From: Candidatus Westeberhardia cardiocondylae
Lineage (GTDB): Bacteria > Pseudomonadota > Gammaproteobacteria > Enterobacterales > Enterobacteriaceae
Assembly: GCA_024648785.1 (NCBI GenBank)
Contig: JABYQB010000002.1
Span: 1 to 64,000, forward strand
Reading direction: 5' to 3'
DNA: 64,000 nucleotides
Below, in pieces: positions 28,858 to 54,378 of the stretch (positions are counted from its first letter, which is position 1; each line of letters opens with the position of its first letter). The notes under the pieces were generated by a model. That model was given only the letters and a program-made list of their open reading frames with translations. It was not told the DNA's origin and ran no database searches. The position numbers and the translations under genes are program-made.

Positions 28858-29714
28858 TTATTTTTTAAAATCTATTGATATCATAAAATTAAATAACATT
28901 ATTGATATAATAGATAGTATGAAATTTTTTTTTGCCCATTCTTTTTCTTTTGTTTTTGTTATTTTCTTTAAAGATGTTTTTAACCAAAATATATTTATTA
29001 TAGTTGTTATAATTAGATATATATATCCTGTATATCCAATTATTTTTAATATGGATGTTAATATTATATAAATAAATATACAATTTGATATGTATTTTTT
29101 TGTTTTAATAAATCCAATTTTTTTTACTAATGTTGGTATAATAGTTTTTTCGTAATCTTTGTATCTGAATATTAAAATGGAATATGAATGAGATATTTGC
29201 CAAAAAATAAAAATTAAAAATAATATGCAAGATATTTCATCAATTTTGTTTATAACACTGCAATATCCAACAGTTGGAGGAATTGATCCTGATATACTTC
29301 CTATAATTATTGAATTATGAGATAATCTTTTCATATATAAGCTGTATATTATAGTATAAGTTATAAATCCTATACTTACTAAACATATTATTAATATATT
29401 AGATATTGTGAATAGTAATATGAAACCAACGGTGGCAAGTATAATTGCGTAAATTAAGCTTTTTTTTTTGTTATTAATTTTTTTATTAGAATTCTATTTT
29501 TTGTTCTTTCCATTTTTTTATCTATATCTATATCAATGTAATTGTTAAAAATGCAACTTGATGCAATTATTAGAAACATTGTTATTGATATATTAAATAA
29601 TTTATAATAATCAATATTATTTTTTGATGCAAATAAAAATCCGCTTATTAAAGAGATTAAATTTGCTATAACAATACGAGGTTTAAATAATTTTATATAA
29701 TTAAGTATTATCAT
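28858..29714 (-). CDS. cyoE: Protoheme IX farnesyltransferase, frame interrupted at an A10 tract (plus-strand T10 29460-29469); +1 nt needed
   Basis: Two ORFs (..FNNYIDIDIDKKMERTKNRILIKKLITKKKA* and MKRLSHNSIIIGSISGSIPPTVGYCS..). One extra A reads ..ITKKKSLIYAIILATVGFILLF...YTIIYSLYMKRLSHN, matching E. coli CyoE across the gap. Confidence 0.93.
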
Positions 29715-29715
29715 T

Positions 29716-30057
29716 TTATGGCATGAGATTTTTATGTAAATGGTCAATAATCCATAAAGAACCAGTTGTTAAAATTATAACAATTAGTGTTGTAAAAATT
29801 ATTGATATAATATTAAATATTTTTGTACTTTTTGATGAAATTTTAAAATATATTAGATACATAAATTGTATGATAATTTGTATTATAGATATAAATACAA
29901 TAAATATTGTTAGTATTTTTTTATTAAAAAATTCTTTTAAATTTATTAAAATAAATGTTAATAATGTTAACATTATACATATTAAGAATATTTTTATTAA
30001 ATGTAATTCTTTTGATTTACAAGAAAATATTACATGATTTTTTTTTTTTAAATTCAT
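29716..30057 (-). CDS. cyoD: Cytochrome bo3 oxidase subunit IV
   Basis: 113 aa membrane protein in cyo order; TTGSLWIIDHLHKNLMP. Confidence 0.92.
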   Translation of the reverse strand: MNLKKKNHVIFSCKSKELHLIKIFLICIMLTLLTFILINLKEFFNKKILTIFIVFISIIQIIIQFMYLIYFKISSKSTKIFNIISIIFTTLIVIILTTGSLWIIDHLHKNLMP

Positions 30058-53445: not shown

Positions 53446-53774
53446 ATGTATGAAATAATTTTAACAATTTTTTTGTTTGATATAATTTGTTTAGTAACAT
53501 TTATTATGTTACAACAAGGAAGAAGTATTGGATCAGGATATTCATTTAATACAAATAATTCTGATATTTTTTTATCATCTAGTTATGTTAGTAGTTTTAT
53601 GAATAAGGTTATTATTTTTTGTTCATTAGTTTTTTTTTGTTTAGTCTTTTATTAGTTAATTTTAATTATTATCAATATACAGATGAATGTAAATTGGGTT
53701 ATTTAGATAAAGATAAAGTTGAATGTGATAAAAATATTATTTTAGATAATTCTTTTGAAGATATACCGAATTAA
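53446..53774 (+). CDS. secG: SecG, frame interrupted at a T9 tract (53630-53638); +1 nt needed
   Basis: MYEIILTIFLFDIICLVTFIMLQQGRSIGSGYSF...; one extra T changes ..VFFCLVFY* into ..VFFLFSLLLVNFNYYQYTDECKLGYLDKDKVECDKNIILDNSFEDIPN*, keeping the E. coli C-terminal DIPN. Confidence 0.85.
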
Positions 53775-53801
53775 ATTTTAGTTGTTAATTTTTTAATTTA
53801 T

Positions 53802-53889
53802 GCCGAGGTGGTGGAATTGGTATACACGCTACTTTGAGGTGGTAGTTTCCCTTGTTCGGGTTTTGCAGGTTCAAATCCTGTCCTCGGTA
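53802..53889 (+). tRNA. leuU: tRNA-Leu (GAG), leuU-like
   Basis: Acceptor GCCGAGG/CCTCGGT, anticodon loop TTGAGGT, long variable arm CCC..GGG, TTCAAAT; in the secG-tRNA-Leu-tRNA-Met context of E. coli. Confidence 0.95.
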
Positions 53890-53903
53890 TTATATAATAT
53901 TTT

Positions 53904-53977
<74 letters not shown>

Positions 53978-54378
53978 CCTATTTTAAAATTTTAATATTA
54001 ATTCATATTTAAATTATAATTTTATTTAATTATTTTAATTATTATTTTTTTATATCTTTATAAGATATTTTATAAAAATTTTTAAAAAAATTTTTTGTTT
54101 TTATTAATTATCGTGTATCTATAAGTATTTAATTATAAATTTTATAATTTTATAGTTATTAAATTATTAGATTTTATATTTGTTACTATATTGTTAAAGT
54201 TTATTTTTATTATATTAGTGTTTTATTTTTTTAAAAAATCATTAATCATAAAATATAAAGTATAATTAATTTATTTAATAAATAATAAAATAATAAAAAT
54301 TTTAATTATTTATTTAATATTTAATGGTTTTAAAAAGTTATTTAAGATTTTTCATTATATATTTTAAGGATTATTAAG

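Follow-up and report, generated by a model that had tools for sequence, protein, structure and literature searches.

The secG locus

The window analysed here is a stretch of 64,000 nt with a GC content of 19-26%, and its contig measures 101.7 kb within an assembly of 447 kb and six contigs. The source is a strongly reduced, AT-rich enterobacterial genome, very probably that of an insect endosymbiont; Candidatus Westeberhardia of Cardiocondyla ants possesses genomes of 0.45-0.53 Mb with 22-26% GC, known from HiSeq 4000 data (PMC9381600). A plasmid DNA similarity search with the window sequence returned matches essentially in the tRNA region only.

As listed in Table 1, secG is interrupted within the codons for its second transmembrane segment (TM2), in a neighbourhood ordered ftsH-secG-tRNA-Leu(GAG)-tRNA-Met-nusA-infB. 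The gene starts with an ATG (MYE...), enters a run of nine T residues (T9) followed by G, and terminates at a TAG (nt 53653-53655) after 69 codons. In the -1 frame it is open up to a TAA and reads LFSLLLVNFNYYQYTDECKLGYLDKDKVECDKNIILDNSFEDIPN*. Addition of one T to the tract gives a 109-aa product with the C-terminal sequence EDIPN, and no second lesion was observed in the tail, which ends exactly in DIPN. When the 135-nt continuation was shuffled 5000 times, only 20 shuffles lacked stop codons, and the other two frames of the continuation contained 3 and 12 stops. The sequence-only reading had called the gene secG, interrupted at T9, with coordinates and sequences that proved right; it had put the open stretch past the zero-frame stop at about 40 codons, and the frame is indeed open, with 45 codons from tract to stop. 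The likeness to E. coli SecG that it described is good only at TM2 and over the four C-terminal residues.

Table 1. Features of the secG locus and of the other interrupted genes on the contig
Feature	Position	Strand	Basis or comparison
secG zero-frame ORF, 69 aa, end FFCLVFY*	53446..53655	+	sequence; Pfam SecG and TIGR00810 scores
T9 in secG TM2 codons, GTT TTT TTT TGT	53630..53638	+	versus in-frame T10 (G002) and T11 (G001)
secG -1-frame continuation, remaining TM2 (LFSLLLVN) and tail up to EDIPN*	53637..53774	+	sequence, alignment
tRNA-Leu(GAG) and tRNA-Met(CAT), 3' of secG	53801..53979	+	order as in G001 and G002
cyoE (heme o synthase), two frames, broken at A10 (sense strand) 29460-29469	28867..29717	-	congener comparison, profile match
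rodA (mrdB), two T10 breaks	G000:C2:74379-74388 and 74550-74559; gene G000:C2:73983-75054 (L164:10983-12054)		rest of contig

The 69-aa product passes the curated SecG cut-offs of Pfam and NCBIfam, with 33.5 bits for PF03840 (cut-off 29.2) and 38.7 bits for TIGR00810 (cut-off 30.85), and the joined 109-aa product reaches 34.7 bits in Pfam, a gain of only 1-2 bits. Like other members of these two families, the window gene scores above cut-off, encodes two hydrophobic segments and lies in a neighbourhood of the same type, although its zero-frame TM2 is shortened and its tail is in another frame. The hydrophobic stretch of TM2 comprises 15 residues in the zero frame; the long form and the congener G001 each have 17 residues there, which in G001 are followed by NF....

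Comparison with congeners and other reduced genomes

For comparison, two genomes of the same genus, G001 and G002, were used, both of which are distant from the window species. In G001, secG is intact, with 107 aa ending in EDIPY, and the homologous codons form a T11 tract in frame (ATT TTT TTT TTT C); in G002, it is intact as well, with 110 aa ending in KDIPN and an in-frame T10 (GTT TTT TTT TTC). The window tract is thus one base shorter than that of G002 and two shorter than that of G001, and with one T added the window gene reads in frame through the same place. Since both congeners are intact at the same codons with T11 and T10, T9 is most simply regarded as a long, mutable ancestral tract that was in frame and has contracted by one base. 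The locus shows what defines a homopolymer frameshift, namely a one-base indel in a poly(A/T) tract of about nine bases or more, with flanks in frame with intact orthologues.

When the continuation beyond TM2 was aligned with the tail of G002, the score was 46, versus a shuffle mean of 20.5 (sd 4.3) with 0 of 2000 shuffles as high. With this match above all 2000 shuffles, the continuation is genuine secG sequence. Alignments of the same segment with the G001 tail and with free-living enterobacterial SecG were not significant (319 and 285 of 2000 shuffles as high, respectively). The earlier proposal that one more T regenerates a homologous TM2 and a tail down to DIPN was thus borne out by translation and by the alignment with G002.

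The constraint on the two parts of the continuation appears to differ. The window gene has lost the G-x-x-W tail motif, which reads GTEW in G001, GSQW in G002 and GSEW in free-living relatives. Several reduced relatives possess a SecG that ends just after TM2, with lengths of 77 (L036), 78 (L138), 75 (L152) and 78 aa (L161); the C-terminal tail has been repeatedly lost in these four, with TM2 retained. The second half of TM2 (e.g. LFFLINLVLCN), which the short product lacks, was present in every intact reduced SecG inspected. The target of selection would be this half of TM2 behind the tract and not the DIPN tail, which is weakly constrained. Because the W motif is lost and the joined product scores little above the short one, the long form may by now be under relaxed constraint. 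The open tail had also been taken as a sign of continuing selection for the long product. That conclusion is not supported, because an open tail fits selection and a young contraction equally well; in addition, the W motif is lost, tail-less relatives exist and the short form passes the family cut-offs.

Among some 40 reduced genomes in which secG was examined, one further interruption was observed at this TM2 tract, in the 400-kb genome G342, which belongs to another genus. There, T9 stands against the in-frame T8 of its sister G012 (L036), and the other frame reads uninterrupted through FFLINLILCNFHSHYF* (L148, minus strand, 0-based offset about 1674). In the between-species comparison, no secG break of the same kind was found to be kept, the frame being intact in both congeners and the G342 break running in the opposite sense to that of the window. 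Given this opposite sense, the TM2 tract resembles a hot spot for mutation rather than a device that the genera share.

About 80 kb of each of the two congeners was also compared with the window, and breaks were counted over the contig (C2). Within the window, cyoE was the sole further break found; it is otherwise intact in two frames, and about 200 residues beyond the break match heme o synthase. All four tracts of the contig (secG T9, cyoE A10 and the two T10 of rodA) are one base short of the in-frame length. In G002, rodA carries a separate break within this region (L172, about 6785), and rodA of G001 is intact; no frame breaks were found in the G001 stretches compared.

Origin and expression of the contracted tract

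The reading preferred here, with a probability of somewhat less than 60%, is that secG carries a leaky and probably recent poly(A/T) lesion that is partly rescued by transcriptional slippage, and not an evolved programmed frameshift. We infer slippage at the tract, the amount of full-length product and the recency of the mutation. Coding poly(A/T) tracts of 9-11 bases are common and mutable in this AT-rich genome, and in the assembly the TM2 tract has lost one T. When T runs are this long, an RNA polymerase of the E. coli type inserts additional U, and part of the secG mRNA, containing U10, would give the full two-TM SecG of 109 aa, the remaining mRNA giving the 69-aa SecG with its shortened TM2; the outcome would be a mixture of both forms. 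On the DNA side, this reading draws on the in-frame T11 and T10 of the congeners, on the homology of the tail to that of G002 and on the three further tract breaks of the contig. The contraction could be carried as a leaky lesion because a lower dose of full-length SecG, or a partly working short form, would be tolerable, SecG being an accessory subunit of the translocon. Such tolerance is expected because E. coli can dispense with SecG (PMC8082313) and because SecG went undetected in a number of the family's small genomes.

Published observations on both sides bear on this slippage reading. The favoured slippage product is the addition of a single base: the RNA polymerase of E. coli slips where 7 or more T follow one another, favours poly(T) over poly(A) and makes insertions more often than deletions (PMC6260861). 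Of 157 transcription insertions in Buchnera, 151 were located within homopolymers (PMC5574713), and corrected transcripts account for 12-50% in frameshifted genes of an aphid and an ant endosymbiont (reviewed in PMC5009743); Blochmannia vafer has eight such tract-frameshifted genes (PMC3017870). Against rescue, Traverse and Ochman found no frame restored by transcription error in Buchnera (PMC5574713). The contig rodA also counts against slippage rescue, as a single mRNA of this gene would have to undergo two slips.

Recent loss without meaningful rescue is a possible but doubtful alternative, in which early gene erosion would be under way and either the 69-aa form would be sufficient or SecG dispensable. 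The short product, which exceeds both family cut-offs and keeps 15 hydrophobic residues of TM2, fits this alternative, as do the tail-less SecG proteins of 75-78 aa in several reduced relatives, the small family genomes in which SecG was undetected, the oppositely directed interruption of this tract in the secG of G342, and the double break in the contig rodA. Erosion is, however, at odds with the retention of the second half of TM2 in every intact reduced SecG inspected, and with a tail that ends exactly in DIPN and bears no second lesion.

An error of assembly or consensus, or a mixed population, such that the DNA would truly be T10 in all or some cells, is unlikely. The uniform shortfall of one base at the four breaks is in the direction of homopolymer under-calling, and G002 has T10 at this place. 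The conserved coding cores of the window, however, contain 37 tracts of 9-11 A/T, T11 and A11 included, nearly all of which are in frame, and the spectrum of tract lengths resembles that of the congeners, with long tracts no rarer. Systematic under-calling is therefore unlikely; a single error is possible, and caution is called for because all four breaks run in one direction. The rodA break that G002 carries on its own likewise speaks against an error. Illumina sequencing rarely miscounts nine bases. If the genus is Westeberhardia, the present data were probably obtained by Illumina HiSeq (PMC9381600).

Ribosomal -1 frameshifting at U_UUU_UUU (53631-53637), which would give the identical 109-aa protein from unslipped mRNA and for which the heptamer is in the correct phase (GTT TTT TTT, with T at 53631), is improbable. 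In E. coli, U_UUU_UUU shifts far less well than A_AAA_AAG (PMC5009743), nine consecutive T necessarily include such a heptamer, and a downstream stimulatory structure, which programmed -1 frameshifting has in addition to an in-phase heptamer, was sought but not found (MFE -9.0 kcal/mol, z -0.16). A more far-reaching idea is that the TM2 poly-T is a recurrent leaky frame switch of reduced symbionts, broken independently in at least two genera, with slippage at T8-T11 determining how much short SecG is made relative to the full form, a dose control that would be tolerated and perhaps maintained; this is highly improbable.

Relation to known slippage systems

Frameshifts in poly(A/T) tracts that are rescued by transcriptional slippage have reportedly been described in Buchnera and Blochmannia by Tamas et al. 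in 2008 and Wernegreen et al. in 2010. As in secG, these are one-base indels in coding tracts of 9-11 A/T in AT-rich obligate endosymbionts, with both flanks otherwise in frame, orthologues intact and several such genes per genome. The secG tract differs in being poly-T on the sense strand, and its rescue is predicted from the DNA sequence. The gene is not mentioned among the Blochmannia vafer cases (PMC3017870). On the best reading, the kind is already known from other insect symbionts and the secG case is new.

The case adds a translocon gene and another symbiont lineage to the frame breaks in A/T tracts that automatic annotation would call pseudogenes. All four contractions of the contig would be correctable by the same one-base insertion in RNA, and the contig therefore offers a compact setting for measuring how much of a reduced proteome relies on slippage of the polymerase, about which studies of Buchnera have come to differing answers.

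Slippage in functional genes is listed for T9 or A9-A10 tracts in Shigella mxiE (T9), Thermus dnaX and Citrobacter tssM (PMC6260861), which resemble secG in the type and length of the tract and in the kind of frame correction. Slippage has been measured in those genes, some of which show it conserved, whereas in secG it is predicted from the sequence and the congener frames are intact.
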